64,000 bases of DNA from Symbiodinium sp. CCMP2592 (taxonomy: Eukaryota; Sar; Dinophyceae; Suessiales; Symbiodiniaceae). Positions within the stretch are counted from its first letter, which is position 1. Each line of letters begins with the position of its first letter. Positions 7,653-43,702 of the stretch are shown in pieces. A model generated the notes under the pieces. It was given only the letters and a program-made list of their open reading frames with translations, was not told the DNA's origin and made no database searches. The translations under genes and the position numbers were made by a program. The stretch is taken from assembly GCA_905221615.1 (NCBI GenBank), contig CAJNDT010004957.1:434001-498000 (forward strand), given 5' to 3'.

Positions 7653-8690
7653 CTAAAAGTGCGCTCCAAACAGGTTCGCGACGACGCTTCGAGGCACGTA
7701 AACCACGCGCCCATCCGTCAAAGTGATGCTTGTCAAGGGCGATGCGCCCGATCGCATCAGCTGTACATGCGGTACCGTCTCCTCCAAGTTGATGGGCTGC
7801 TGCGGGGGCGCGGTGGGGCTGTTCGCCCACTCTCGCTGCTCCGGTGAGGCAGCTCGTTGCTGGTTGTCTCCGTCCCCGTGTTCTGACTCCACCTCGGACT
7901 GGATGCGCACCACCGTCATCTGGATCTCCATCAGCGTGTCCCGAAGGATCTGTAATCGGTCCGGCTGGTGCGCGCAATCCTTCTCCACCTGCTCGGTTTT
8001 ACAGCCCCGCCACTTGACCATGGCCATGAGGTCGCCGCCCTCCTTCTTGACCCGGTGAAAGACATTGCTGATCTCCTTGAGGATCTCCGTCGTCTTCTCA
8101 CCAAGGGTGGTGTTCATAGTTTCTTGCCCCCTTTTCAACGGGGCAAGGCTTTGGCTGGAGATCTTGCTTGCCTCCACGATGCTCAGCTGGACTTCCTTCA
8201 GGATCTTGTCGAACTTGTCCTTGACCGCCTCAAGCATGCCATCCACGTCCCCAACCCGAAAGCCTGCCGTGCGCCTCCACGAGTCGTCAGGTTGGCAGAC
8301 CGCGAGCTGAAACACGGCGCCAGCAAACAGACAATCCTTCAACAGATCGACCCTTGGCCCAAGAATGGGCAGCACGCTCATGACGATTGAGATGGCCGGG
8401 TCTGTAAGGTGGATCTGGCGCTTCATGATCACCGCCTGCACCGCGCGGAAGAAGTAGCCCAGCACATCCGTGGCAAGGACGACCACCAACCAGATCCAAA
8501 TGACTTCCCACGCCAGCCCCGCGCCGCCCAGCATCAAATTCTCCGCTTTGGACCAGGAGGTCAGCACCAGCAAGAAGATGATGCTGCAGACATAGTAAAC
8601 TCCAAACACGGCAGTCTTGACGGGGCCCAGCTGCATCGCGAACTCCTCCTCCTCCTCCTCCTCCTCCTTCTCGTCCTTCTGCTCCCGCTT
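7653..8690 (-). CDS. Membrane protein with two TM segments and a helical tail, inside a retrocopy
   Basis: The frame is open from about 8690 to a stop at 7653. The first ATG (8636) gives 327 residues. Residues about 8-27 and 42-63 are strongly hydrophobic and look like two membrane helices. Residues about 115-250 are charged and helix-rich, and the C-terminal 80 residues are Q/P/S-rich. A GAG repeat just upstream adds a run of eight glutamates in frame before the ATG. The spliced-leader relict at 9193-9208 lies on the same strand upstream, so this looks like the 3' part of a reverse-transcribed mRNA. I do not recognise the family. Coding bias and length favour a real protein, but the upstream half needs frame changes to join, so it may be a decaying retrogene or may contain short introns. 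Confidence 0.6.
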   Translation of the reverse strand, partial: KREQKDEKEEEEEEEEFAMQLGPVKTAVFGVYYVCSIIFLLVLTSWSKAENLMLGGAGLAWEVIWIWLVVVLATDVLGYFFRAVQAVIMKRQIHLTDPAISIVMSVLPILGPRVDLLKDCLFAGAVFQLAVCQPDDSWRRTAGFRVGDVDGMLEAVKDKFDKILKEVQLSIVEASKISSQSLAPLKRGQETMNTTLGEKTTEILKEISNVFHRVKKEGGDLMAMVKWRGCKTEQVEKDCAHQPDRLQILRDTLMEIQMTVVRIQSEVESEHGDGDNQQRAASPEQREWANSPTAPPQQPINLEETVPHVQLMRSGASPLTSITLTDGRVVYVPRSVVANLFGAHF

Positions 8691-9136
8691 CTACGGTTAA
8701 GAGACGGTCGGCTTCTTCTTTTGACCCTTTCGAGGATCCCATGAATGGCACATGTGGCCCCTTTGAGCTTCTCAACAAGGACACCAGCCAGGCCAGGCTG
8801 ACTGGCACGGTTGCCACCACGACGGCCAGGCCGATGGTAAGGATGCCCACGATGAGCGCATCGATTCGACGAGCCGCCATTGCCGGGTACCATAGACCCA
8901 GCGCATGCCGCGCTCCATCCCCTGGAACCTCGGACGCACGGCATCTGGCTCTGGCAGGGCTCCAGATATCGTGCCGATGAAGGGGATCGGAAGATCGCCC
9001 CCCAGCCTGGCCGTAGGGCAGGTTTTCACCCTCACCACGGTAAGTTGCCGGCCGGGGACGTTGCTGGTATCCAGCTCCGAAATGGCTCAGAAGCCACAAC
9101 GACTCCCAGGGCAATCAAGATCCGGAGGAGAGTCAT
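8691..9136 (-). pseudogene. 5' part of the retrocopy: signal-like N terminus and a TM segment in shifting frames
   Basis: Reading the minus strand from the ATG at 9136, the product starts MTLLRILIALGVVVASEPF, a signal-peptide-like leader, and meets a stop at about 9032. The protein-like sequence then continues in a second frame, and from an ATG at 8880 in another frame as MAARRIDALIVGILTIGLA with a long hydrophobic helix. That frame runs into the GAG repeat at 8640-8665, where it is out of step with the downstream ORF. Either there are small introns (GTGAGG just after NLPW, a CCGTAG acceptor before the GAG run) or frameshifts have accumulated. The nearby spliced-leader relict favours a retroposed copy. 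Confidence 0.45.
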
Positions 9137-9192: not shown

Positions 9193-9208
9193 CTTGAGCC
9201 AAAATGGC
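9193..9208 (-). other. Relict dinoflagellate spliced-leader sequence
   Basis: On the minus strand these 16 bases read GCCATTTTGGCTCAAG, which I match from memory to the 3' 16 of the 22 bases of the conserved dinoflagellate spliced leader. It lies 57 bases upstream of the ATG at 9136. Genome-encoded leader fragments fused to a gene's 5' end are the known scar of mRNA that was trans-spliced, reverse-transcribed and reinserted. The 5' six bases of the leader are degraded. Confidence 0.8.
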
Positions 9209-9529
9209 AAGCGTCAAGGGTTTAGGGGTTTTGGGATTTAGGGGTTCGTAGAGTTCAGGGTTTATGTTGAAAACGGGCCAGTCTCAAATCTTCATAAACC
9301 CTGAACTTTCCCTCTGACATGTTGCACCGATACATAAGGAGCCGTACAGGGGTCGGGGTTGTTTCGGGAATTACGGTTAAGTGTTCCTGGTTCGGCGCAC
9401 TGTACTGCGGACATTAAAAAGCCCTAGTCGCTCTACACCAAACCCCTCGCTGCGAAGCCTTAAACCGGCCAGCACAAAACCAAACCGTCCTCAATGCCTA
9501 AACCTGCCCATGTGAAGACCCCTAATTAA

Positions 9530-11600: not shown

Positions 11601-13298
11601 CAAGTTCGAAGAAGGACAACAACAGGGTTGTAGGAGCGTGTTCGCCAAAACACAAGAAGGACAGAGCCACATGCAAACGCATTTGGGGGGCGAAAGCAAG
11701 CAAGTACATTTATCATGACGATGGAAGGCTTGCAAATGGGGGGGGCTGCGCCCCCCCAACCCCCCCGCTTGTCTTAGGCTCAACCCCCCCTTGTTTCGAG
11801 CCGCCAGGAAAAAAAAGCGTTCGCCAACACAAGAAGGAAAGAGCCACATGCAAACACTTCAGGGGTTGAAAAGCAAGGAAACACAACTGAGCAGGAATCA
11901 TTTGGCAGGTTTGCAAAAGGGGAAGGGAAGGGTAAGAACGACAACCCGGGGGGGGTGTTGTTTTCTCAAGAATGCGGGGAACAACAAGCGGAGGCGGGGT
12001 TGTTGTTCTTTCAAGAGGGAGGGAACAACAACGAAGGCGGGAGATTGTTGTTCGCTCAAACTACTACTACTCTAACCACTAGTGATTTATCTGCAAATTT
12101 GAAAATGGAGGCTGAGATGCAGCGTCTGCCGCAGCTCGTTCGCAGCTCAACAAAAAAAGACAAAGGCGGCCAAGAACTCAACATGGCAAGAACAAGTAGT
12201 AGTACTACTACTACTACTACTATTACTACTCCTTCTCCTGCTCCTTCTTCCTCACCCGACAAAATACTACAACAACCATTCCGAAAGAGACCCCCCCCCC
12301 TCCCCAAGAGTACGAGTCCCCAATACTTGCCTTTGGTTAGCCGGGAATGAAAGAATGAAGCGTTCCCCCGTGCATTGTTGTGGTAGGGATTGCTAGCAAA
12401 CACTCGGAAAAAGAAATACATCTAATTTGTTTCGACACATGGAGATGTGTACCGGATGGGTTTTAAACAGTGACAAAGACAGTATTTTCGATTTGATGTT
12501 TTGCGAGAAATCTGTGAGCACTCTTTTTTTTTCTCGAAATCCACTGGAATGTTTTTGTCTCTGCGCCTGTGACTATTATTCTAGAATCGGAGTCTCGGAG
12601 GTTTTGTCTTTTTTTGCGAAAACTTATGACATCTGTGAACTTAGACTGCTTCCATCCGAGAGACTGTTCCGAGAAACAAAGCTGTGACACAATGCAACCT
12701 GCGTTCTCGAGCTGCGTCTGCATCTTTGCTCACACATGATGCATGTCAGCAAGAGCACGAAGCCTCTAGCAGTATAAGTTATAACTCTGACTTTTGGGAT
12801 TCACGGGTGTGCATACGTGCATGCATGCATCCGTCGTAGAGGATACATATGTTGCATCGTATTATATCATGTTATATCATATCATACTGTGATATCACAT
12901 GAATTTGTCTGAAGGGTCCTAGAGAGTTGGTTTTGTAGGGTCTAAGAAGGGCTGTAATCATCTCTTGGATCTGTTTGTTGCAGGGATTTCGAGCGTTTGG
13001 AGTTGAGGCTTGGGTTTTAAAGTTTAGTTGTCGGCATTGCGATTTCGGGATCCCTGAACCCCCCCCAAATGTAAAATCTTGGACCTGAAGGCTCCTTGAC
13101 CCTAAACACTATACGTGAACAAACCCTAAACTCTAAACCTTGCACACCCTAGACCCCAGCAACCTCGCGTCCTTATGGCCCTTGAACCCACAACCCTAAA
13201 CCTTACATTCAGAGTAGCCCTGAACCTTAACCTCGCATCTTTCAGGGCCCTGCAGGCAAGCACGGGGACGCCGTCATCGCGAACTTCACTGCCAGCGA

Positions 13299-13572: not shown

Positions 13573-14165
13573 ATGCATCCATGCGTCCATGCATCCACCC
13601 ACAAATCCACCATCCTACCATTCACCCATCCCTCTCAGTCGGCCATTCACCCACTCACCCGCTCACCCACTCCCACCCCACCCCCATCCTGCCCGAGTTA
13701 CCTCAAAGACCCAGCCACACACACCCACCCAGTAGCACACAGCTGCATGAAGAAGAGCACAAACACATTACATATATATATATATACACACAAAATATCA
13801 TCCAATCTAATCTCCTCCAGTTTAAGTAGAAGAGGTATGCACGTGTGTAGAAATCGTTTTTTTTCTTCGTGTACCCCACCTGCCCCTTACGACACGGTGA
13901 GGAGGAGGAGGAGGAGGAGGAGGGAAGGATGGGAGTGGAAGGAGGAGGGGAGGGGGGGGCTGAGAGCTGAGAGGGACGGAAAGGATTGGAGCAAAGAAAT
14001 GCTTTCAAGTTGGGCGAAGTTCAAAAATTATCTGCTTATCCTTGGAAACAGTATAATTCCTCAATTGTTCAGACACCGGTTTCAAAAGTTGGGTGGGTTG
14101 CAGCAAGACGGGCTGTCCAGACAGCTGTCCGACACCCCTCCGGTGCAGCAAGCCTGTCCGGACAG

Positions 14166-15777: not shown

Positions 15778-17969
15778 GGACTAGTGGGTGACCCTCTGGG
15801 CGATCCGGGTCCTACTGGAGTCGGAGTCGCGACCTCAGTCGAGATCTCTTCACTGGGGCTTCTTGCAACAGCCTCTGGTGGCACACGTGGCTCCGGGTCC
15901 TGTTCCAGCTAGTGCAAGCAGTAATCATTCGAGTCCAAGTCGGGGAAGCTATGATATTATAGGGTGTCCTCAGTGCAGCTCGCCGCTCTCTCTTCGGATG
16001 CCTGGAGCTTCATCCAGAGTGACAAAGACTCGTCCTGCCAAAAGGGTCATTTTTTTCTGCAGTCAATGAAGCATGGTGGGCATGCTAGTCGCCTCGTTCG
16101 CCATACGGTGGATTACGATAAGCTGACGATGCAGCTGTAACGAGCAAGCGCTCTGAATGACAAATTGTGGCCCTGCGTCCTCCAGCCTTGTCATTTCTGC
16201 CTCCATCTCAGACTGCTCTGCCTGACCCAGGCCACACAAAGATGACAGCAAGACCCAGTTTACTGCTTTTCACCATCATGCCTGGTGCTTCTCTAGCCGG
16301 CTGTGCATCTCCTGGAGCTCCTGCTTCGCCGAGTCCTGGCATGTGTCATGAGAAGTTTGCATCATCTCGTCTAGCTGCATCTCCGAAGCTTCTTCCTTGA
16401 TCCTGTCTTGGTCTGTGTCAGTGTCAGCTGAAGTTGACTTCATCTCATGTGATCATGATGATGGTCTGGCAGTCACTTCCCTCCGTGCCTCCATCTGCTT
16501 CAGCGAGAGCGCATGCTGCTCCTGAAAGCATAGTGAAAGCGAAAAGCAACGCCTATGTGATGGCGGGCTAAACACCTGACCTCCTCTGCTTTGAGGCGGC
16601 TCTTTAAGATATCCTCGCAGAGCAATGCAAGGAAAATGCTACATCTGTGATGCTCGTCGGCCTGCTGCTGATTGCTGTCGTTCAACCCCATCTCCATGGC
16701 CGTCACCAAGCTCTTGTACTTCTGGAGCTCCTTCTGCGTCTCCTCCTGCAAGCGAACAAGGTTTGACGTGCAAGCCAGACCAGAAAAAGAGAAGGGCCGG
16801 CCTCCTTGAACTCCGACACTGCGAGCTCTTTCTGCGACGTCAGCATCATGTCGCCCGCGAAGCTCTTCGCCTGGCTCAGATCTGTGAGCTCCTTCTCCAT
16901 GGCCATCAGCTGGATTTTCAGCTCCTGCACATTCCGACCATGTCACCAACTGCTGCAGGCTAGTCTTCAAAGCAAGCTAGACTCCTTCACCTTGTTCTGC
17001 TCCTGCGTGAAGTACTGACGATGAACGGCCTTCCAGAAATCTAGGAAACCAAGGAAGGCAAGAAGTCAGACTCCGGGAACACACGGAAAGGCCTGGTCCT
17101 TCTCTCGAGCAGATTGCAACCCGGACACTTCCTTCTGCAGCTGGTCCTGTGGCGTTGGGAGGGGCTGAGACCGCGCGCTGATGCAACACCAGTTCCCGGT
17201 GTCCTTCTCCACCCTCAAGATCGCCCCTGCTCCGGTGGCCACGTCCAGCTGCGTGGACATCTCGTCCTTGCTCTTCTTCATGGAGGCAGCCAGGGCCTCG
17301 TACTTCTCGCAGGCAGCCAGCTCGGTTTTCGCGACATCCTGCAATATACCAGCCAAACGTGGATTCCGATTGGGAGTGCTGCGCACAAAACAACGGATGA
17401 CAGGCCTGGGCATGGCTCTGGCCAGCGATGGCCTCCTGCAAGTGCTGCTTGAGCACGCCGACCTCTGCCTCACCAAATGGAAGTTAGTCGCTGCACTCGT
17501 CGCTGTCTGTCTCTCTTTCTCTCTATCTCTCTTTCTCGCTCTTTCCCTCTCTCTCGCTCTAGCTCTCGCTCTCGCTCTAGATCTCGCTCTGGCTCTCGCA
17601 TTCATGGGCGGAAGACGAAGAACTTGACAGAGTTGGCCTGCTTTTTATTTCTCTCCCCGTCTCTCTGTCTCCTCTTGTTGCGTCTGTAACTGTCCTTCTA
17701 ACTGTCCTTCTTCTACAGATTCTACAGCTGTCCCTCGTCCGGGCCTCCAACTTGTCGCCTCGGAAGCGCTCCTTCTGGACCTCCGCTATCCACTTCTTTC
17801 GCATGGCCTCTCTATCCTGTCCTGACGGGAGCTCCTCCTTGCGCTTCTTCTCCTTGCGACGACGCTCCTCCTCGCCGTTGCCACCTGAACCTGAGGCCCC
17901 GGATCCACCGCCGCCGGACCACCCAGCATAGTAGCCGCCAGAGCCGCTCGAACCCTGCTGCCACGCCAT
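15778..17969 (-). CDS. Multi-exon coiled-coil protein gene, copy 1
   Basis: The ATG at 17969 opens MAWQQGSSGSGGYYAGWSGG, a glycine/serine-rich head, followed by a strongly basic/acidic helix (EEERRRKEKKRKEEL). Downstream on the same strand, short coiled-coil exons in changing frames follow: LKQHLQEAIAGQSHAQ (about 17450-17410), VAKTELAACEKYEALAASMK (17340-17195), DQLQKEVSGLQSAREK (about 17150-17095), VQELKIQLMAMEKEL (16930-16800), EETQKELQKYKSLVTAMEMG (16755-16650), EQHALSLKQMEARR (about 16525-16485), DQDRIKEEASEMQLDEMM (about 16410-16276) and a proline-rich TEVATPTP exon near 15840. Coordinates cover the recognisable span; introns lie between. The family is unknown to me, and the domain character suggests a structural or scaffold role. 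It is duplicated in inverted orientation at 44970. Confidence 0.6.
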
Positions 17970-20648: not shown

Positions 20649-22037
20649 TCACTTGCCGTTGGCTTCCAAAATCCCCGCCAGCACTAAACGGAGCAGATCT
20701 ACTGGAACAGAATTCCCGGCAGCTTGCCCCAGTGCGCGCGCGGACAAAATGTCGCGCGGAACGGACGCAGGATCCACGCCCATGAGCTTGAACAGTTCAT
20801 CCAGTGTCATAGTGCGTCCCAGCCAGGTCAACCACGCACCCGCTGGTCTTGAGCGCAAGAGGCAGGGAACTCGTCCTTTCATGACGTTCGGAGCACGCTT
20901 TAGGCTGCTGAAAATGTCAGCGAACCAGTGCTCCGTTGATGGATCACCTCCCATCGCTCGAATCCGCGCATGTGCTTTCCTCAGCTGTGTCTGCTGACCC
21001 CTAGCTTGTGGTAGGCGTTGGCAGTCATCGCCAGGCAGGGGCCGGATGAAGTCGTGGATCGGACGGGTGGCATTGACCTGGCAGGTTCGAAAGCTAAAGG
21101 AAGAACTCCTGTCAAGACAGCGGTTCATGGACATATCACGTTCATGGAAACCATGGCCTCTGGTGGCCAGCTCATCGGACGCTGCATAGCCGAGGTCAGG
21201 CAACCGGTCACAAACAAGCGCTCTCGATGCTGGGGCAAGGTGGTGACCCTGCATGTGTCCAAGACCTTCCAACTCACAGAGTACCTTGGATTGGTAGCAA
21301 GTAGTGGTGCGCCTCTAGAGATTCTTGCTCACGGCTCACGACTCACGCAAGATGCAGTACAGCAGCAGCTTCCGGCCCCTCTCATCCGTCATGCCGTCCA
21401 GGACTCCCAAAAGCATGGCAAAGGTTTCGGGGTAGAGCGTCAACAAGCCGCGGACATTCTCGAGGCAAAACATTGGGGGTCGTCTGTGCCTGATGTAACG
21501 GAGGATGGGGAAGATGCACGATCCACTGATGTGTGTCAAGCCTGCTGTTCCCGCTGGCTGGCATTCGCTAAAACCCTGGCAAGGAAAGCCAGCGAAGAAC
21601 AGGTCGCAGCTCACTGCCATCCAGTCTTCCAGAAAAACATCGCAAAAGACATAGTCGTGAGTGTGCATGCTCATGGAAAGCTTGCGCAGGCCAGCATTGC
21701 TCTCGCAGCAGAAAGTTGCTCGGAAGCGCCGCCCCATACCATTCAGGCTCCATAGCTCGGCGCACAAGCCAGAGCACACCGAGCCGACCAAAATGGTGTC
21801 CTCGCAAGGGCGTATCTCGTCCGCAGCCTCAGGCAATGGGTGCTTGTCAATGTGGCCCAAGACGCTTTCGGCAGTAGGCACATGCTTCATGATTCGCTGT
21901 CGTGGGGTCTTCTGCAACGCAGGCCGCTTTTGGACCTTGTCGCACTTCTGAACCTTCATGGGGCCACGACGGCGGGCTTTCTTCGCGGGCATCACGTCCT
22001 GAACATCATCGTCATCGTCCCAGTCCACATTCAACAT
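20649..22037 (-). CDS. C5 cytosine DNA methyltransferase, about three exons
   Basis: Read from the ATG at 22037, an acidic then lysine/arginine-rich leader precedes motif I (GSVCSGLCAELWSL), motif IV with the catalytic cysteine (FAGFPCQGFSECQ) and motif VI (FCLENVRGLL), ending near 21342. A donor such as TTGCGTGAGT (possibly GC-AG, which dinoflagellates use) leads to a second exon near 21284 with motif VIII, LPQHRERLFVTG (21203-21240). A third exon (about 21060 to the stop at 20649) holds motif IX (RTMTLDELFKLMGVDP) and motif X (GQAAGNSVPVDLL). All key catalytic motifs are visible, so it is probably functional. It would methylate cytosine in DNA. From memory, methyltransferases captured by dinoflagellate retroelements (DIRS-like) have been reported, and the neighbouring recombinase fits that theme. 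Confidence 0.85.
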
Positions 22038-23475: not shown

Positions 23476-24296
23476 TACCAGATGCCCCGCTTTGCTTAGC
23501 GGACTTGTAAGTTAGGATGCAAGGCAAGTTATAAATTTGGTAACCTACACATAAGGTATGTTAGGCTACTTATAAGTTCGATAAGTTCGCTTGGACATAT
23601 ATGTTACTAAGGCTACTTCGCCGGAGGTTATAAGTGACTTATAGTTATGGCGTCCAAAATACATAGAATGAACTTAGCTTTGACTTAGGATGGACTTACA
23701 AAATAGTTTTTTAGCATGATTGCTGTCATCTCCGCAGCTTGGGCTCGCGGGAGTTTTAGTGGTTGCGCTGTGTAAAAAGGTTGAGCCTGAGCATGGCGGA
23801 GGTCGTGAATCCGCACGAAGTGCAGAATCATCTTCTGAAGAAGAGCAGCGACCGCAAACTGATAGCTACTTATCGGTACTTGATGAGCAGCCGTCAGGCT
23901 CCTGCGAGGAACCTGGGCCTGAAGCTTCGCTGGGAGCTTTTGAGGAGACATGCTTTCGACGAGGCTTGGTTCCAGAAGCATGCGGAGCAGCAAGACGAAG
24001 ACTGAGATAGCAGATTGAGGTCTGCTGGGCCTTTGGCACCGAAAACTCCACAGCTGAAGCTTCTTTAATTAAGCTGCACCGACTCGGAGCTGTAGACATC
24101 TCTGCACTCTGGATTTCCTGCTTGCAAGAAGAAAAAGCTGAAGGCAGGACGAGACTCCCCTGCAAAAGTTATTTGGTGGTCATTCTCTCTTTCTCTGTTC
24201 CTCTGTGGTTGTTTTGGTTGGCTCAAATGTAATTGATATAGAGTTTGTACAGTGTGCTTTTCGTGTAGGCTCGTTTTAGACAGCTTGGCTTTTGCA

Positions 24297-25544
24297 ATGG
24301 CCTCACAGCAGCAGCAGCAGGAGACTGTTGCTAAGCGGCGAAATCCTCAGGATTATCGCCGCTTCATCCGTTACATGCCGGCATCGCTGTGGCGGTACCT
24401 GCAGGAGGCACAGTTCTTGGTTGACTCTGTAGAGAAGCTGGGAACGTTTCTTTTTGGGCTGGGGCTTCGTCTTCCCAGCGAACTGACAGTGGCCTACTTG
24501 ACTGCTGCTGTGACCTTTCGCAACGGCGACAGCAGCTCGTTTCAGTTGCACCAGAACTTTCTGACGGTGAAACGTTTGTGGAAGCAGCTGTACTCCAGGC
24601 TCTCGAAGTTGCCTTCAGAGGGTCTGGAGCCTTGGCTGCAGGAGCTCCCTGGAAACATGGATGAGTTGCCGAAGCCTTATGTCCCAGCAGAGCCACCGTT
24701 GCCGGAAGCTGAGTGGCCTGTTCCCCAGCGACGCTTAGACGAGCTTGCGGCTCGTGTGCCGTTGCGCAAGACCAACCGCGTTGTGGCAGAGCAGACGGCC
24801 CAGTCCAGCCAGGCTCTTGCTTCCGGGGCGCAGCCTTCGGGGCACCAACTTGCAGCCGTTGTGCAAGCTGCGGTGACACCGCTCGTCTCCATGATGATGC
24901 AGGGTGGTCGCCAAACTGCAGCAGCGGACACTGGCATAGGTCTGCCAGGTCTGCAGATCCTTAGCCCGGGACGTCGCTTCAGAGGTAAGAGAAGTCTGGA
25001 ACTTCAAACGCCGCCTCGCGAAGCAGCCTCGGCTTCCACAGTGCAAGCACAGCAGTTGGCGCTGCCGCCTCCGCCTGCCGCCACGCAGCAGCCACAGCAG
25101 GTGTCGCTTGTGACACCGCCTGCGGGCGAGGAGCAGCCACCTTCGTCGGCTTGCCTAGACTTGCAGAGCCCCCCGCCCAAGGCTTGCACGTTGCGCGACA
25201 ACGCTCTGGAACTGGCCTCGGCCTTCAAGCAGTCCCAGGACAAGCAGAAGCCACAGAAGGGCAAGAGGTTTGCCCGCCCGGCTGCTCAGACCAAGGTTTT
25301 TGCTCGCCCGGCAGCTGCCACGAAGCCCAAAGTTGTGCGTCAGTCACAACACAAGAAGCCAGCTGCTTGCAAGAAGCCTGCTGCGGCAGGAAAGCAGGCT
25401 CTTTCCCAGACTTTTGCTTGTGTGGTTTCTCGAGCCTACCACGGCGCCCGAAACCGCGCTTTGGCTGCGGGCCAGAGCAAAGAGTCCGCTGCTGAAGCTG
25501 GCCGCCGTGCCTACCGCAAAGCTAAGGCTGAGTTCGCGGCCTGA
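24297..25544 (+). CDS. Transposon ORF A, 415 aa, KPAA-rich basic tail
   Basis: The ATG at 24297 (MASQQQQQETVAKRR) is the first in-frame methionine. Residues about 15-140 are helical with aromatic residues (FIRYMPASLWRYLQEAQFLV) and may be a folded domain. Residues 140-290 are P/Q/A-rich linkers. The tail carries ARPAA, KKPAA and KPAAAGK repeats and an AYHGARNRALAAGQ helix. The basic repeats suggest DNA or chromatin binding. It is first in the transposon's ORF series, followed by a (CA)n block. I do not recognise an enzymatic domain; a role as a DNA-binding accessory protein is inference. Confidence 0.6.
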   Translation: MASQQQQQETVAKRRNPQDYRRFIRYMPASLWRYLQEAQFLVDSVEKLGTFLFGLGLRLPSELTVAYLTAAVTFRNGDSSSFQLHQNFLTVKRLWKQLYSRLSKLPSEGLEPWLQELPGNMDELPKPYVPAEPPLPEAEWPVPQRRLDELAARVPLRKTNRVVAEQTAQSSQALASGAQPSGHQLAAVVQAAVTPLVSMMMQGGRQTAAADTGIGLPGLQILSPGRRFRGKRSLELQTPPREAASASTVQAQQLALPPPPAATQQPQQVSLVTPPAGEEQPPSSACLDLQSPPPKACTLRDNALELASAFKQSQDKQKPQKGKRFARPAAQTKVFARPAAATKPKVVRQSQHKKPAACKKPAAAGKQALSQTFACVVSRAYHGARNRALAAGQSKESAAEAGRRAYRKAKAEFAA

Positions 25545-25667
25545 TCTTTTGATCTTGAGATTTACCTCTATCTATCTTGAGGCCAAGGTTTTGTGCCTTC
25601 TTGGCTGAGAAACACGTGGAGTTCTGCTTTGAAGAAGAAAAGTCGGCTGTTATAGTCTTGCACGGAC

Positions 25668-25683
25668 ACACACACACACACAC

Positions 25684-25768
<85 letters not shown>

Positions 25769-25820
25769 ACACACACACCCACACACACACACACACACAC
25801 ACACGAACACACACACGAAC

Positions 25821-25855
<35 letters not shown>

Positions 25856-25866
25856 CACACACGAAC

Positions 25867-25902
<36 letters not shown>

Positions 25903-25968
25903 ACACACACACATACACACACACACACACACACGTGAACACACCCACACACACACACACACACAGGG
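25668..25968. repeat. (CA)n microsatellite inside the transposon
   Basis: Almost uninterrupted CA dinucleotides with occasional GA or CC interruptions, lying directly 3' of ORF A. Confidence 0.95.
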
Positions 25969-26339
25969 AGATGTGCACACCCACCCACACATGCACAGAC
26001 ACTGTCCAAAGCAACAAAAAAACTTCGCAGCCCTCCTTGCTCAAGGGCCTGGACAGGTGCTGCTAAGGTGGCTGGGGGGCGGACTGGCTCTTCAAGCCTC
26101 GAGGCATGCCGGTTCTTGAATTTTTTTTAAGGAGTTCAAGATTATGCTGGCACTGAGAAACAGCCAGAATCCTCTCTCCCCTTTTCCTTCCCTTCCAGTC
26201 CACGATATATATATATATACAATGAACAGAAAATGTATTTGTGTAGTCTATCTATCTATCTATATATATATATACAGTTACTATACTATTACTCCGTGTC
26301 TTGCTGCGGCGAGATACAGAATCATCTGCGCTTTCTTAA

Positions 26340-26600
26340 CGGTCTCTGCGGAGATGGCACCTGTGGCTGCGGCCGCATGCAGTGTGCCGCAGTCTGCGGA
26401 CTGCCCTGGCTCCGTCTGCGGAAGTCAGGATCACAACCTCTGCGGCTGCGGACGCGGAGGGGCTGCTGCAGTCTGCGGACTGCAGCAGCGGCACATCAGT
26501 CTGCGGACTGTCGCTTGGAAAGCAGCACCTGCATCTGCGGCTGCGGCCGCAAGCAGGTGTCTGCGGAGTGTTTCTGGGATATGTCTGCGGACTCTTTCCC
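26340..26600. repeat. TCTGCGGACTG hairpin-rich repeat inside the transposon
   Basis: TCTGCGGA/CTGCGGC words recur more than ten times. The best hairpin is CTGCTGCAGTC (26463-26473), loop TGCG, GACTGCAGCAG (26478-26488), a perfect 11-bp stem. It lies between ORF A and ORF B, with (ATCT)n and (TA)n runs at 26205-26275. Confidence 0.75.
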
Positions 26601-26747
26601 GGCTAGTTTCTTCTAGATATGTATATATATATATACAAATTTGCTTATTTATTTATTTCCACAACCACTCCTTATACGCTCAACTCTGAAACCTTAAACC
26701 CTATAAACCCTATAAACCCTGTATACCTGTAATATCCTGCAGGTGCC

Positions 26748-27580
26748 ATGGTCCAGCCCTCCGAGGACAGCACGGAGGACAGCTCCGAGGAGCAGCAGGC
26801 TGCTGAGCCGCCGGAAGGGGCAGCGCCGACCGCTGTGGCGGCCGGGGGCGCTTTCAGCACTCCGCCTGCCACGAGCAACCACCCGCCCGAGCCGACAGAA
26901 CCACCAAGCGAAGCTGCACGCCTGCGGGCGAGGCTGGTGGCGAACCGGGTTGCGCGCGCTGCTGCTGCGGAGCCCAGTGTCTTCCCGACCGGTCGGCGGA
27001 GCAGCCAAAAGCGTGAGAGCCCGGAGGGGGAACGCAAAGGAAGCTCCAAGGCTGACCGCGACAAGCAGAAAAAAAGAAGGACGACAGGAAAGGACGCTCT
27101 CGCTCCAGGCGAGGTAGACGCCACGACAGCCGCGACCGTCGCCGCCGAAGCCAGGAGGGGCGTAAGAAAGAAAAAAAGGTCTCGAGGGACCGTGGCCTCT
27201 CCCGGAAGAGAACGCCAGCCCCTGCTGTGTCTAAGGCGAAGGATGCAGTGAATACCTGCACCATCTGCAACCGCCAAATCCACGGCGGGGTTGCGGGTTT
27301 CCAGCAGCACGAACGGTCCGGGCCACACCTGGCTTGGGTGCTGTGGCGCCGTGGTGTTCGGCCCTGGCAGCGGTGCGTTACCCAGGGAAAGGCCGAGGCC
27401 GAAAAGTTGTGGCGCGGCGACAGCAAAAAAGCTCCTCCTCCGGAAGAGAGAAGTCCTTCGCCGAGAGGTCCTGCCCTAGGCGGAAAAAAGGATCCTAAGG
27501 ATCCCCCCGACGGCCCGGACCGGGGCAAGGTCTTAACGGCCTTGTTTCAGATCGCGGCCCGCGAGCTTCGGGAATGGTGA
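26748..27580 (+). CDS. Transposon ORF B: SR/RD-rich protein with one C2H2-type finger, frame break in an A7 run
   Basis: The ATG at 26748 opens an acidic, P/A-rich N terminus (MVQPSEDSTEDSSEEQQ). At the A7 run 27069-27075 the protein-like sequence moves into another frame, where it reads as an arginine/serine/aspartate-rich stretch (KGRSRSRRGRRHDSRDRRRR) and then a finger with CTICN...GFQQHERSGPH (about 27256-27325), a C-x2-C-x13-H-x5-H arrangement. It ends ARELREW at 27580. The homopolymer suggests a one-base indel, either real or a sequencing error. Proteins pairing an SR-like domain with a GG..G.QQH finger are, from memory, common in Symbiodinium models. Nucleic-acid binding is likely. Confidence 0.55.
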
Positions 27581-28059
27581 CCGCAGTTTTTGCCGCCTCT
27601 ACGGAAAAAAACAGCTGCAGTCTGTCCAGAACGTCCCTCTGTAGCTCGCACCCCGAAACCATTAAGCTCGATGTAGATCTGACACTCCCTCAAAACCCTT
27701 ATAAATCTTTCCTGAACCCTAAAGTTTTCTAAGGTTCCTTGTAAACATACACTTTATATAACTCCTCAACCCTCTAAGCCTCCCTGTTGACATATAAACG
27801 TTAACCTTTTCGGCGAGCTTTATAAACCCTTCCAAGTTTCCTTATATATACCCTCATATATACGTCCTGAAGCCCTAAACCCTTCTGCCCATCATAATCC
27901 CAGGTAGCGAATTGAAGACCGAGGTCCGAGGCTCTCGTAGATGTTACTCTCGCCTTTGGTCTGCAGATGTGGACGTGTCGCTTTTTAGAGAAGTCAATGC
28001 CCGCGTATCCCTGTGAGATGTTGTTTAGCCCTGCCCGTAACAAAACCATGGCCTTGTCA

Positions 28060-28300
28060 TTCTTGTATAATCTTGTATGGAAAAACTTGTTATCGTGTAG
28101 GGTTCTTGTATTATTCTTGTATAACTATACAAAACCTGCTTTTCTAGGATAGCATCAATTCTTGTATAAATCTTGTATACACTCATACAAATACAGAAGC
28201 CTGGTCAACCGCCTTTCTGGTTTATAACCGCATTCTTGTATATCTTGTATGCTTCCGCAGGTATAATTCTTGTATAATTCTTGTATTTTCTTGTATACTA
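28060..28300. promoter_or_regulatory. Array of TTCTTGTATA direct repeats upstream of ORF C
   Basis: About ten copies of (T)TCTTGTATA or close variants are packed into 240 bases, with some reverse-complement TATACAA copies at 28127 and 28178. The array ends about 100 bases before the ORF C ATG. It could bind the element's own proteins or act as a promoter or intron element. The repetition is plain; the role is inference. Confidence 0.5.
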
Positions 28301-28403
28301 AAGACGCACCGGCCGAATCCAAGCTTCGGGGTTGTCCGCAGTTCCAGCTCCTCCAGTCGCTTTAGCTTCCTCTGCGCCTCGCCGTTTCTTTGCCCGCCAC
28401 AGC

Positions 28404-29519
28404 ATGGCGGATTCGACACTGCGTGAAGCCTCGGCTGCGGCTGAAGCCCCTGCGCAGCCAGAGCGTCAAAAGTGCGCCCTTTGCCTCCTGCTCTGTGAGA
28501 AGGTGAGCAAACGTGGGGCCCAGCTTGTCTGCTCGAGTTGCGTGAACGTTTCGTCCATGCTGCAGCACAAGCTGGGCGGCAAGGTCGCTACCACGTTGGA
28601 GGACAAGGTCACCTTCTACCAGAAGATCAAGAGCAAAGGCTCTGGCCGCTTGGAGTGGAAGACCGTGCGGGCCCTCGTCAAGGAGCACATGATTCTGCGG
28701 AGAATCAAGCAAAGTGAAGTCAGTGTGGGAGGGAAGTACCTTCCCATGAACGTTCACTTGGCTGCTGGCTGGACCGAGAGCCAGGTCCGGGCCAAGGAGG
28801 ACTTCATGGAGGATGCCCAGCTGGGCACGGTGTGGCGTGTTCCCGTCATGGAGAAGACGGTTCGCCAGATCGACGAAGAAATCGACGAGGAGCTCACTAC
28901 GAAAGAGCAGGAGGTGACCCAGAGCCGGCAGGGCAAGAAAAGGAAGCTGCAAGAGGGAGAGCAGCAGGAGCCAGACCTGGACCTTCCTTCCGCTGCTGCA
29001 GGAAGCAAAGCTTCCGAAAGCAACAAAGCTGAGAAGAAGGAGGCGCAGGAGGAAGCCAAAGCGGAACGCTTGGTTTTGAAAAGCAACAAGACAACGGCTG
29101 CTCTGGCAGCCAAGGTTGTTGGCCCCCTCTCCACGCTGGTGTCCTCGCTCAACTCGGCTAAGGGTTTCGCCACGAAGTTCTGGGACGACCTCGCGCCTGA
29201 CCTTCGCACAAGCTTCGCCGAGGCCTTAGCTACGGCTCTCGCCTGGAAGACCGCTGCCACCTCAGCTCTGCAGTTCCAGGAGAACTACGAAAACGCTGCC
29301 CGCAAGGACCCGGCGGCTCCGGTGCAGTCTCTCCCTGCTCTGCCCTTCACTGCGGAGACGTTTTCGGACTACGAGAAGGCGAGCAAAGCTACTGTGAAGG
29401 AGCTGCGCAGTACTGTCCGCGCCAAGAAAGACGAGGCTGTTGCAGCTGCTGAGGCCGCAGGCAAAGCCAAGGCTAAGCCTAAGCGCCGCGTCAATGGGAA
29501 AGCCAAAGCAGCGGCTTGA
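28404..29519 (+). CDS. Transposon ORF C, 371 aa, N-terminal C4 zinc finger
   Basis: The ATG at 28404 opens MADSTLREASAAAEAPAQ; the frame is open further upstream but without ATG. Residues about 26-50 carry CALCLLLCEKVSKRG...CSSC, a probable four-cysteine zinc finger. A helical charged middle includes QIDEEIDEELTTKEQEV and GKKRKLQEGEQQEPD. The region after residue 220 is a helical domain (VVGPLSTLVSSLNSAKG...FWDDLAPDL). The tail is basic (KAKAKPKRRVNGKAKAAA). It is a nuclear-type, DNA-binding-looking protein. I recall similar finger proteins as repeats in dinoflagellate gene sets but no function. Confidence 0.6.
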   Translation: MADSTLREASAAAEAPAQPERQKCALCLLLCEKVSKRGAQLVCSSCVNVSSMLQHKLGGKVATTLEDKVTFYQKIKSKGSGRLEWKTVRALVKEHMILRRIKQSEVSVGGKYLPMNVHLAAGWTESQVRAKEDFMEDAQLGTVWRVPVMEKTVRQIDEEIDEELTTKEQEVTQSRQGKKRKLQEGEQQEPDLDLPSAAAGSKASESNKAEKKEAQEEAKAERLVLKSNKTTAALAAKVVGPLSTLVSSLNSAKGFATKFWDDLAPDLRTSFAEALATALAWKTAATSALQFQENYENAARKDPAAPVQSLPALPFTAETFSDYEKASKATVKELRSTVRAKKDEAVAAAEAAGKAKAKPKRRVNGKAKAAA

Positions 29520-29826
29520 GAGAGTTCTTCCGGCTAAGAGCCGTTTTGTGGTTTTGTGTTTGACCGTGTTATCTTCCCAGAGGATGCGCGGTGTATCTGC
29601 ATCTGCCTGTATGCTCGGCAGCAAATCTATACCAGCATAAGTCTTGGGTTCGCAGAAAAGAATAAAAGGAGCCCCATGCCCAGAGCATTTGATTTTCTGA
29701 ATTGACTTTACTTCAGATGTGCATTATCCCTTTGGCAGCAGTCCTGTGCTTCTGCTGTCTGCGATCAATATAGCTGTGATACCTCTTTCCATGTACCACC
29801 TGGGTTGGCTCAAGGTGTTAGCGTCG

Positions 29827-30363
29827 ATGGCTGTCCAGAGCTCAGTCCCCAGCTCCGTGCCGGTCCTTCACGCGGAGTCGTGGCCTTGCCGAAGTCCACG
29901 CTGCCCTGTCAGGGTTTACGACGCTAGGCACAGACACTGCTGCAGTCTCTGCCGAGAGCAAGGCCTGCATACAGAAGACTGTGCGCGACGTGCTGAAAGG
30001 CTGGCCGCAGCTAGTGCTTCTGGCCGGCTAGCTGAGAGGGCTGGGCAATTTTGCTTGAACTGCCCGCGCAGGGTCTCGTCCATGCGCCTCTACTGTTGTC
30101 GCACCTGCGATCGCACCCCCGACAGAGGACATACGCGCGGATGCAACAAACGAGCTGCGGCTCTTGAGCGTACCCGCGAAATGCCATCGACAGCCAGCAG
30201 GGACCTGGAAACTGCTCCAAGCAGTTCAGCTGCTGGCACTGGGTCTTCGTCTCAAGCACCAATGCCCGGGAATGTCTTCGGGGCGACCTCCGCTTCTGAT
30301 CTCAAAGGAGACCTCTCTTTCGAGACGACTCCAAAAGACCTGGACCTACACAGTCTCGACTGA
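29827..30363 (+). CDS. Transposon ORF D: protein with a duplicated Cys-His module
   Basis: I chose the ATG at 29827 (MAVQSSVPSSVPVLH); the frame is open further upstream to 29719. Two tandem modules follow a shared pattern, CP-x-RV-x(7)-CC-x2-C-x(4-7)-HT-x2-C-x-R: first CPVRVYDARHRHCC...HTEDCARR, then CPRRVSSMRLYCC...HTRGCNKR. Conserved cysteines and histidines suggest two zinc sites. The tail is S/T/P-rich. A role in nucleic-acid or protein binding in the transposition complex is inference. The family resembles short Cys-His repeats I recall from dinoflagellate proteomes. Confidence 0.55.
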   Translation: MAVQSSVPSSVPVLHAESWPCRSPRCPVRVYDARHRHCCSLCREQGLHTEDCARRAERLAAASASGRLAERAGQFCLNCPRRVSSMRLYCCRTCDRTPDRGHTRGCNKRAAALERTREMPSTASRDLETAPSSSAAGTGSSSQAPMPGNVFGATSASDLKGDLSFETTPKDLDLHSLD

Positions 30364-30875
30364 GGAGTGCTGCAGGTGCTACAAAAAAGAAGGTCTCTTT
30401 CACATGCTCAGCCATGGTTTCAAAACCCTTCTGTTACAGCTGCTGCCTGGACTTCTGCAAATACTAAGTTCTTGGGACCAGCTCTTCTTCGCAGCTTTTG
30501 TGCAGACTTCTAATCTTAAACAGTAGACCCCCAACCCTACACCCCACATATATACAAACCCTAAAAAACCGCTCTTATTAAAAATGCTTAAAAGATGAAT
30601 ACAGACACACATTTTTTCATAGGGGAAGAAGTTACAGAGGTTTTAGGATGTCGGGAAGCCCTGGTATCCAATAGGCTTCTATAGAGGCTTTATAGTCAAA
30701 GTTCGGGCCGTTTAGGTTTAGAAATTATGGGCTTAGTGTGGTCACGGAAACATGACTATACCCAATAAAGACATGGCGGCCTGAAACGAAGCCCTCTGAA
30801 AAGAAACCCTCTGGTATAGCCGCAAATCCCTGCAAGCCTCGGTTAGTAAGTACATGAGAAGCAACGCTGCGTGCC

Positions 30876-32864
30876 ATGGTCAACAACAAGAAACGAAAAA
30901 TTCTGGACGCAGAAGCTGTCGCCTCTTGCCTGCACCTGCGTGGTGCAAGTGAGACCACAGTTTTGGCTATCCAGAATCGACGCGCGCAGGAAAATGAGAA
31001 ATGGTCCAAGGGTACTTTCTGGCGCCGCGTTAGTGAGTACTACGCCCCTCTCCAGAAGTGCTACTGCCGCTTGACGCTGCAAGGAACCCGTGGCTCGGAG
31101 CTAGACTTCTGGGTGGCAGACGCCCAAGCGATGCTGCAGGAAGTCGCGGCTAAGAGCTCGCAATGGTGCTCCATGCTGCAAGCCGCGCTCGCGAGGACTG
31201 CAACTCTTCGCGTCCTGTTGTATCACGACGAGTGCACAGCGGGAAACATCTTAAGTCCCCAGAAGAAGCTCAAGGCCACCATCTGGTACCTGACTTTCCA
31301 AGAGTTCGGCCATGTTACGGCCAAGGAAAATGCATGGCTGCCCGTGGCGCTGCTGCAGCATCACGTAGCCGATACCGTGCTGGGCGGTGTCTCAGCTGCC
31401 ACGGTCAAGGTGCTGCAGCATATCCTGCAGCCTGCCAACAGGCAAGGCTTCGACCTGAACATGGGTGCCCATGGTGCACGGGCTCGAGTTCAGCTCGCTC
31501 CCACGGCTCTCTTCATTGCAGATCACGATGCCCAACGTGCCACTTACTGCAATAAAGGTTCCAGCGGGTACAAGCCCTGCCTCTGGTGCGCGAACTTGCT
31601 CAAGCGCGATGCTCCACAGGCCGCAACGGGCTCTGGAAGGTTTGTTGATATCTGCGAAAGCAGATTTCACAGCTTTCACATCGCATCTGACTCTGAGATC
31701 TTCGCCGCGGCGGATCACTTGGCTGCCATTGCCACTGCAGGCGAACGCGCCAGGATGCAGAAAGCATATGGTTTCAACTTCGTGCCAGGGTCACTGCTTC
31801 AAGACGCAGACACTCGAGAACGCCTGCCTCCCTCCTGCGCGTGCAATGACGTGTTGCATGCCTACTTTGTTAACGGGGTGGCCTCCTGGGAGGTAGGACT
31901 CGCCATGCGCGAGCTCCAAAGCATCCGCGATCTGGATGCCTTGTGGCAACTGGTGCAAGACGAAGGTTGGCAACCGCGCGCAGAGACTGCTGGAGAACTG
32001 AAGTCTTGCTTCCGGTCTACCCTCTACGACTCCAATGATGGTTTCAAAGGCAACGGTGCCCTGTGCTGGAACTTTGTTTTCTTGCTCTATTATCTTGTTC
32101 ACAAGCTCCTACACAAGGCAGAGCTGAAGCCTGCAGTCTGCAGGAGTTTTTTCCTCTTGAAGAGCATCTCTGCGGAGCTGCGACGCCTCAAGGCAAGTAA
32201 GCGACCCCTGGCTTCAGCTGATGTGCAGATGCTCCATCGCTTACAGCAGCAGCATCAAGAAGCCTGGCCGCAGGCGTGGGGTCGCGAAACCATGCGGCCT
32301 AAGCATCATCATAGATTGCACCTGCCTGCGGGCTGTGTCACTCTGTCCTTTCTCCCCAACTGCGAAACCCAGGAATCCAAGCACAGGGTCTACAAATCCT
32401 ACATCGCTGCGCACCAAAGAGCTCACGTCAATGTCAGTTCAAAATTCCAGATCGCGCTGCTCTCTCGCCTGCTCAATGTGACGCTGAGAGAGTCTGAGGA
32501 ACATGGCTTACTCTTGCCTCCGGAGTTGCTGAAGCCCTTCCGACCAGCATCCTGCGAACTGCGAGCTTTCGCCAGCGACCCCGATCTCCAGTCCGGCAAA
32601 GCACTGCGCTTCGGCAAGCTGCTAATCCGGCCTCAAGACGTCATCATGTGGGATGATAAAGCTGCTCAAGTGCTGGAATGCTTCCGCGGAAGATCCGGCT
32701 TCTGTGTGCTCACAGTGCGCCTGCAGCTTCTACGGAAGCATGCTTGGGGGTCCGTCTGGCAAACTACTGACAGACAGACCTTGCTGCCCCTGACACCTTC
32801 TGCAGACATCAATCTGCCACTTTACATGAGATGCGTAGGCAACACAATCTCGTGTCTGCATTGA
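30876..32864 (+). CDS. Transposon ORF E: 662-aa putative DDE-type transposase
   Basis: The ATG at 30876 gives a single 662-codon frame. Residues 113-127 read VLLYHDECTAGNILS, a hydrophobic strand ending in acidic Asp-118/Glu-119, followed by KATIWYLTFQEFG. Residues 213-241 read FIADHDAQ...GYKPCLWCANLL, with Asp-216/Asp-218 and a CxxC pair. Later, CNDVLHAYFVNGV presents a D-x2-H motif like those seen in CACTA/KDZ-type transposases. This spacing fits an RNase-H-like catalytic core, but the triad is my assignment. It is the last and longest ORF, ending 190 bp from the right terminus. From memory, many dinoflagellate gene models share the DE-x-TPGN-like and KPC-x2-C motifs. Confidence 0.55.
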   Translation: MVNNKKRKILDAEAVASCLHLRGASETTVLAIQNRRAQENEKWSKGTFWRRVSEYYAPLQKCYCRLTLQGTRGSELDFWVADAQAMLQEVAAKSSQWCSMLQAALARTATLRVLLYHDECTAGNILSPQKKLKATIWYLTFQEFGHVTAKENAWLPVALLQHHVADTVLGGVSAATVKVLQHILQPANRQGFDLNMGAHGARARVQLAPTALFIADHDAQRATYCNKGSSGYKPCLWCANLLKRDAPQAATGSGRFVDICESRFHSFHIASDSEIFAAADHLAAIATAGERARMQKAYGFNFVPGSLLQDADTRERLPPSCACNDVLHAYFVNGVASWEVGLAMRELQSIRDLDALWQLVQDEGWQPRAETAGELKSCFRSTLYDSNDGFKGNGALCWNFVFLLYYLVHKLLHKAELKPAVCRSFFLLKSISAELRRLKASKRPLASADVQMLHRLQQQHQEAWPQAWGRETMRPKHHHRLHLPAGCVTLSFLPNCETQESKHRVYKSYIAAHQRAHVNVSSKFQIALLSRLLNVTLRESEEHGLLLPPELLKPFRPASCELRAFASDPDLQSGKALRFGKLLIRPQDVIMWDDKAAQVLECFRGRSGFCVLTVRLQLLRKHAWGSVWQTTDRQTLLPLTPSADINLPLYMRCVGNTISCLH

Positions 32865-33057
32865 CGATGACAACAGTCTTCAGTGGAAAAAAAAACCCTG
32901 GAGCAAAACACAAATGAACTTACACTCAACTTATAAGTTAGCTCTAAGTTCTGATTAACTTACTTATAACTCATTTACATAACTTCAAGATAAGTTCACT
33001 TATAAGTTCCCTGAGTTCCTTAACTAACTTATAAGCAAAGCGGGGCATCTGGTAGCC

Positions 33058-43030: not shown

Positions 43031-43702
43031 TCAGCAGGGGCAGCGGTCCAGCTCCTCGGCCATTCTCTGCAGCACGTCCTCCGGTTCTGGAGCAGCCTCA
43101 GTTGCAGCTTTCTCCGCAGAGCCGCAGGCTTGGTCCTCCACAATCTCAATCCCGAATGGGCTCTGTTCCTCAGCTTCCTGCTCCGCATGCATGGACTCGG
43201 CCTCCGAAACGGAGGAATCGGAACATTCCTCGCTCACGGAGACAATGTCCTCGTCCATATCTAGCTCTGATGGGACAACGCTGCTCTCCTCCTCTTCCTC
43301 CTCATCTTCGCCGCAGTCCATACTCTCGCTGTCATCTCCGTCGCACTGGATACCCTCGCTGTCCGAGGTGTTGTCATCTTCGATTTCCTCGCGGGTAACA
43401 GCTGGGACATAGAACTGCGTCTGTCTCCTCACACGCTGTTTCTGAGGATCTCGCGGATAGATCGTGTAACGGTAGTGACTGCTGCGGCCAATTTGCTCAC
43501 GAGCACGTTGCTCATAAGATGCTGCAGGCGGAGTCGGAGTCGGCCGTGGTTTCGGGACCTGCAAGCCAAGACGAAAAGAGTCCAGCCTTTGGATCACTTC
43601 CGCCTTTGAGCCTCTGATCGTCAGCGAATTCTTGGTGCAAACCTTGCGGAGGTCTCGGATCGTCATCGCCTCCATCTCGGCTGGCAGTGGCAGCCGCTCC
43701 AT
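43031..43702 (-). CDS. SAP-domain acidic protein
   Basis: The first in-frame ATG is at 43702 (MERLPLPAEMEAMTIRDLRK); the frame is open to 43798. Residues about 10-45 (AMTIRDLRKVCTKNSLTIRGSKAEVIQRLDSF, in pieces) match a SAP motif, a two-helix DNA-binding fold common in chromatin and DNA-repair proteins. A proline-rich linker and an aromatic/basic segment (HYRYTIYPRDPQKQRVRR) follow, then a long D/E/S-rich tail to 43031. It lies upstream of the hAT-like gene on the same strand, and could be a 5' exon of it or a separate accessory gene. DNA binding is likely; the target is unknown. Confidence 0.6.
   Translation of the reverse strand: MERLPLPAEMEAMTIRDLRKVCTKNSLTIRGSKAEVIQRLDSFRLGLQVPKPRPTPTPPAASYEQRAREQIGRSSHYRYTIYPRDPQKQRVRRQTQFYVPAVTREEIEDDNTSDSEGIQCDGDDSESMDCGEDEEEEEESSVVPSELDMDEDIVSVSEECSDSSVSEAESMHAEQEAEEQSPFGIEIVEDQACGSAEKAATEAAPEPEDVLQRMAEELDRCPC

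Follow-up and report, generated by a model that had tools for sequence, protein, structure and literature searches.

A gene-rich DNA transposon, probably of a new CMCT-like lineage, in the dinoflagellate Symbiodinium sp. CCMP2592

Introduction

Repeats and unannotated proteins abound in the genomes of dinoflagellates. A 64,000-nucleotide stretch of the Symbiodinium sp. CCMP2592 genome (GenBank assembly GCA_905221615.1, contig CAJNDT010004957.1, positions 434,001 to 498,000, forward strand; hereafter the window) raises the question of whether several such proteins belong to one mobile unit and, if so, of which kind. An original prediction, made from the letters of the window, had placed a complete transposon of an unassigned type at positions 23476–33054, with five open reading frames (ORFs A to E) on the same strand between terminal inverted repeats (TIRs). 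We compared this locus with the genome assembly from which it comes, 5383 contigs with a total of 1.098 Gb. The element is, very probably, a cut-and-paste DNA transposon that has been active recently and that belongs to a new lineage, CMCT-like and rich in genes. Its completeness is backed by other copies, by uninserted counterparts of its insertion sites and by a gene order that is kept in distant families.

Results

Copies and insertion sites

The terminal repeats of the element match at 23 of 23 positions (23476–23498 versus 33032–33054), which none of 100 shuffles reproduced. With up to three mismatches allowed, the TIR occurs 17 times in the genome, compared with one match for the pattern read backwards as a control. 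The 17 matches resolve into one pair 1.35 kb apart, three lone ends and, as the original prediction had anticipated, further full-length pairs: six convergent pairs, 9.57–9.72 kb apart, the window's own included. The other five full-length copies lie on contigs C5044, C5136, C5304, C2001 and C2369 (C and L numbers denote contigs and loci; F1 is the window element's own family, F2–F5 and F7 are related families). Within each of two subtypes, described below, the copies diverge by 0.20–0.39%, and on the strength of this low divergence the family has apparently been active recently. None of the six copies has an interrupted ORF A, D or E, D being shorter by 13 codons in C2001 and C2369; ORF C is likewise open throughout, with an altered end in C5304. 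The 1.35-kb pair (L014, 1001–2348) carries both TIRs, is 87.6% identical to the left end of the element over 467 aligned bases and is likely a non-autonomous derivative.

The six copies could have been made by segmental duplication instead of transposition; they are few, and some relatives have common flanks (L024/L026; L029–L031). The 600-base flanks of the window element, however, have no match at any of the other five full-length copies, whose 25-base flanks likewise differ, and precise uninserted counterparts exist for both copies that were tested. We consider the probability of segmental duplication negligible.

These counterparts were found by joining the flanks of a copy over a single copy of the duplication and searching the genome for the joint; two joints were searched. 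The window flanks with a single TA occur uninterrupted on C2558 and C1078, identical at 240 of 242 bases, ungapped, and with both mismatches far from the junction. The C5304 flanks with a single TT were found on C4966 (240/242, with a 2-base gap away from the junction). Six further, weaker matches to the C5304 joint (70–75%) indicate that this copy was inserted into repeated DNA. The uninserted counterparts may be alleles or related copies. As they hold a single TA or TT, the target site duplication is TA or TT, and the element proper spans 23478–33052, complete and about 9.6 kb long, with one TA at 23476–23477 and the other at 33053–33054. The dinucleotides at both ends are identical in all seven two-ended copies (TA in six, TT in C5304), whereas the outer 3-mers agree in one of the seven, the window copy. 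In the F2 family, two copies have TA at their tips and no match further out. The originally proposed GCC duplication has to be given up: the uninserted counterparts read AAGCC-TA-GCCCTG, so that GCC belongs to the natural target sequence (AAGCC-TA-GCCC), where it flanks a natural TA. The repeat that hosts the C5304 insertion was also seen about 2.5 kb from an E gene of the F3 family (74%; L062/L063; C91, C955, C1531).

The repeats claimed as perfect 23-bp TIRs are indeed perfect, but the TIR itself is 21 bp long, the outer two bases being the TA duplication. Repeat comparison and genome copies define both the left TIR (23478–23498, + strand; CCAGATGCCCCGCTTTGCTTA), for which the uninserted counterparts also speak, and the right TIR (33032–33052, − strand). 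The tips read CCAG in F1 and F2 and CCTA in F5 (both ends) and F4 (right end); the left tip of F7 is CACGG. By motif count, the predicted TAAGTT/AACTTA arrays are concentrated at both ends of the element, with four copies on the left (23508–23676; shuffle mean 0.47, maximum of 200 shuffles also 4), eight on the right (32917–33031; shuffle mean 0.58, maximum 3) and one in the 8.8-kb middle. The left array is the weaker one.

Gene content and conserved gene order

All genes of the element lie on the + strand. ORF A (24297–25544, 415 aa) is KPAA-rich, with a conserved N-terminal region and no Pfam match. Gene B (26748–27580) codes for a serine/arginine (SR)-rich protein with a CxxC...HxxxxxH finger. 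ORF C (28404–29519, 371 aa) has an N-terminal CxxC...CxxC finger and a basic C-terminus, ORF D (29791–30363, 190 aa) a double Cys-His module, and ORF E (30876–32864, 662 aa) encodes the putative DDE transposase. Of the five ORFs originally listed, four (A, C, D and E) were confirmed; the fifth, B, has a broken frame in the window copy. Pfam gave nothing convincing for A, B, C or D: the best match was zf-CRD for one C protein (E = 0.012), and the F4 B protein matched DUF2197 at 8.7e-4, below the curated cut-off.

About 10 kb of DNA with several same-strand genes and TIRs would also suit an integrated virus or a Polinton-like element. The products of A–E, however, match no capsid, polymerase, polymerase B, ATPase or integrase family of Pfam above chance, the duplication is 2 bp, and the viral contigs hold neither an exact TIR match nor a relative of E (two viral-contig stretches that matched a search pattern encode no relative). 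A viral or Polinton origin is thus highly improbable.

Relatives of the genes occur together throughout the genome. Of 669 candidate matches to ORF E, 67 were scored; six of them are the element's own copies, which leaves at least 61 diverged relatives as a lower bound. In 65 of the 67, the matched stretch is free of stops. Among 43 matches to C, 34 lie upstream of a same-strand E match within 40 kb, 31 of these within 6 kb, and none lies near an E on the opposite strand; three of the other nine (C1015, C1218, C5191) sit between F5 TIR-tip pairs. The same placement within 40 kb holds for 13 of 18 A matches and for 13 of 15 matches to the finger half of B, where the A, B and C lists each include the six own-family copies. 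With a more distant C as the query, C was also found in the F7 family, between A and E (C274, C5264); the right end of F7 was not reached, the C274 stretch reading N.

Gene sets were recovered between TIRs. The F2 element on C3422, 9.8 kb long, has A at 9447, B at 12390, C at 14015 and E at 16463 between TA-flanked TIRs at 8907 and 18729. For F5, 32 exact TIR-tip matches (one in the reversed-pattern control) form 12 convergent pairs and 8 singles. All 12 pairs enclose a C and/or an E match, and nine enclose both. Eight pairs are 10.3–12.4 kb long; the other four, at 21.5–36.9 kb, probably hold nested insertions, and the pair on C1015 joins two different tip variants and may not be one element. 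Judged from these comparisons, the order and strand of A, B, C and E are conserved in relatives about 30% identical. The ORFs thus recur together between TIRs in the same order, and the view that several proteins form one mobile unit holds for A, B, C and E, with D outside the conserved set. The C-terminus of the F2 protein A (L064, 127–1563) is unlike that of the window's A, a possible further exchange of modules.

D was considered as a core gene and rejected. Among its 79 matches, it lies upstream of E only at the six own copies and, 12 kb away, at one place on C4960; positions were checked by script for 10 of the 79 and by contig name for the rest, whose contigs have no E match apart from C4960 and C5151.

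It might be argued that E alone is needed and that the element picked up the other four genes as passengers. D, confined to its own family and one distant neighbour, fits this idea. So does a tree of 17 E proteins, all of them members from this genome, in which six families without detectable C fall on one side of a 100/100 branch, while ten of the other eleven have C, the exception being F3 (F3 and F7 form long branches). Passengers would, however, be expected to vary, whereas A, B and C precede E in one and the same order even where identity is down to about 30%. Among copies less than 1% diverged, A and C also show fewer non-synonymous than synonymous changes per site. The ratio (pN/pS) is 0.10 for A (7 synonymous to 2 non-synonymous changes; five copies, with C5044 left out for a 3-base insertion), 0.38 for C (4 to 5; first 360 codons) and 0.13 for E (7 to 3), each resting on 9 or 10 changes per gene and given without a significance test. 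These small counts suggest constraint on A, C and E. Passenger status for all four genes is therefore unlikely. The six families without detectable C (L046, L049–L053) form a sister lineage of their own.

ORF E and its relation to known transposases

The ORF E protein contains D118, D216, C235xxC238, D325xxH328, H478xxxH482 and E500. In an alignment of 17 chosen members, which share 21–34% identity with the window protein, D118-E119, D216, C235xxC238, D325xxH328, H478xxxH482 and E500 are invariant (17/17), and D216 and E500 are 284 residues apart. A crude propensity profile over the alignment gives weak indications that D118 and D216 are preceded by strands and followed by helices; the order strand-D, strand, strand, helix, strand-D is weakly compatible with RNase-H. 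We infer that E may adopt an RNase-H fold and that its acidic residues would be catalytic.

Several superfamilies share single features with the element. Tc1/mariner elements have the TA duplication, but their second D and the E are about 34–41 residues apart, as compared to the 284 found here. Zisupton (KDZ) produces an 8-bp instead of a 2-bp duplication, and no ORF matched the Pfam families of the PIF/Harbinger transposase or its Myb-like partner. Transib and RAG1 have the same order of acidic and zinc residues, a comparison based on the residue spacing of RAG1. Transib elements generate 5-bp duplications, and the E profile, in contrast to this likeness, matches no solved structure above chance.

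The element might also be a plain CACTA/EnSpm transposon, or a member of a described CMCT lineage (ESTA or Plavaka), with extra ORFs. CACTA elements are multi-gene and have subterminal arrays and accessory proteins. The likeness extends to the residue order D-D-CxxC-HxxxH-E, to the subterminal arrays and to a DxMH-like motif, present in most members, which we take to resemble that of Tnp2. However, CACTA/EnSpm duplications are 3 bp long and not TA or TT, the tips are CCAG or CCTA and not CACTA, and no Pfam match of the 17 members was better than E = 0.019, PF02992 being absent at E ≤ 1. A genome search for CACTA Tnp2 (PF02992) found nothing; this search is uninformative because it was also negative in the control genomes (0/14).

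The CMCT group takes in CACTA/EnSpm, Mirage, Chapaev, Transib and their allies. The order D, D, CxxC, HxxxH, E has been reported for this group, including RAG1 (Kojima, 2025; PMC12730594), and the CMCT feature, C(2)C and H(3–4)H between the second D and the last E, is present in 17 of 17 members. The 2-bp duplication fits the 2–5 bp of this group. According to the parts of the source considered here, ESTA, a fungal EnSpm-like lineage, shares CxxC and HxxxH at this position as well as the TA duplication (PMC12730594). Compared by description only, our element differs from it in the partners A, B and C in fixed order with E, in the CC..GG tips, in the dinoflagellate host and in that no TET/JBP gene was recognised. 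The fungal Plavaka elements share the CMCT motifs, and PlavakaA makes 2-bp duplications, but their tips are TGT..ACA or CATCA..TGATG as opposed to CCAG or CCTA (PMC12730594, same parts). Those parts describe no such gene set, and the main text contains "dinoflagell" and "symbiodin" 0 times. Taking both sides together, we regard a plain CACTA/EnSpm or described CMCT affiliation as rather unlikely. The designation of the transposon as one of an unassigned type still applies.

Several observations weigh against a CMCT-like lineage with a conserved gene set. Most members of the CMCT group have CA..TG termini, whereas the element has CC..GG. The best Pfam match of the 17 E proteins is to an unrelated family, the window protein has none, and a profile search of the PDB with E returned chance proteasome matches only (E ≥ 0.62); the DDE assignment therefore rests on motif order. 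Among the C matches listed, none lies upstream of 33 of the 67 E matches, and as 7 of the 17 aligned E families are without detectable C, six of them in the separate clade, some members may do without C. The few changes behind the pN/pS values belong here as well.

An exchanged gene B cassette

The full-length copies fall into two subtypes, the window, C5044, C5136 and C5304 versus C2001 and C2369. Outside one block of about 2.2 kb, the subtypes are about 99.5% identical; C5136 and C2369, for instance, differ at 7 of 1245 bases in A, 7 of 1113 in C and 6 of 1986 in E. Copy comparison places the block at 25662–27870 of the window, with approximate edges, and it measures 2.3 kb in C5136. This cassette comprises a CA microsatellite, a CTGCGG array and gene B, and outside simple repeats C5136 and C2369 have no 25-mer of it in common. 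B and its counterpart B' in C2001 and C2369 are 54.7% identical in amino acids, and third positions of conserved four-fold-type codons agree at 35 of 81. Since this identity is low and the rest of the copies are near-identical, the split between B and B' must be much older than that between the copies. Most simply explained, the B cassette would have been swapped when an element recombined with an older relative, for which the CA microsatellite on the left edge of the cassette may have served. The genome search revealed no donor of the B' cassette; beyond its own family, the only matches of B' were three places in F2 (40%) and a single short fragment of C1113. Despite the unalignable DNA, both cassettes keep clustered TCTGCGGA motifs upstream of the gene, seven for B (26345–26591, +) and six for B'. 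Both subtypes also have 11 TCTTGTAT motifs upstream of C (28061–28296, +).

In the window copy, C5044 and C5304, the B frame breaks at an A-run (about 27060–27080), leaving 167 aa; in the window the pieces are a 167-aa ORF (26748–27251, +) and the finger frame (27071–27580, +). B is open in C5136 (277 aa) and in C2001 and C2369 (272 aa). The differences in A-run length that decide the frame could be due to assembly error, decay or slippage.

Surroundings of the element

The size of the genome suits a dinoflagellate. At 9193–9213 (−), the window contains a spliced-leader-like relic with three mismatches (0/100 shuffles) to what we take to be the dinoflagellate spliced leader. It lies about 560 bases upstream of an ORF at 7653–8636 (−), a possible retroposed gene. 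None of the 74 loci examined contained an exact match to a 17-base piece of the leader. An ORF at 43031–43702 (−) has a SAP domain (PF02037, 2.8e-6), and no Rfam RNA family matched in the window. A cytosine-C5 DNA methylase fragment (PF00145, 2.2e-12) lies at 21336–22037 (−); dinoflagellate retrotransposons have been reported to carry cytosine DNA methylase genes, according to the part of the source considered (PMC5890265).

Discussion

Cut-and-paste anatomy with a CMCT-like residue order and a TA duplication is known in kind. In CACTA elements, TnpA binds the subterminal arrays. For the element described here, we propose that one or more finger partners would bind the TAAGTT/AACTTA arrays, with A, the SR/C2H2 protein B and the C4-finger protein C, if expressed, acting as partners or regulators. 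Helped by the bound finger protein or proteins, E would pair the element ends in a complex and cut next to CCAG at the 21-bp TIRs. The cut ends would be joined to a two-base target, TA or rarely TT, and repair of the two-base stagger would yield the 2-bp TA duplication.

A more far-reaching proposal is that the lineage ranks as a superfamily, that transposition needs a four-protein complex of A, B, C and E, and that B modules are exchanged, which would evade silencing or change regulation or specificity. We put this forward tentatively and consider it doubtful as a whole. If true, the exchange of B modules would allow one set of ends and one transposase to work with SR/zinc-finger proteins that differ widely. 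We found no description in the literature of the A-B-C-E set, the CC..GG tips, the Pfam-silent transposase or the B exchange, which in view of the partial coverage of the sources is not proof that none exists; PMC11453091 and PMC3229502 name no such element in the parts considered.

The finding unites several Pfam-silent proteins in one mobile unit with proven insertion sites, and orphan gene models of these kinds could therefore be reinterpreted as genes of transposons. A residue order like that of RAG1 together with conserved partners offers a point of comparison for how RAG- and CACTA-type machines gained their partners. The near-identical, largely intact copies make the element a candidate for activity tests in a group for which transformation is difficult, and the old B/B' pair, housed in elements that are otherwise almost the same, directly attests to modular evolution within a DNA transposon.

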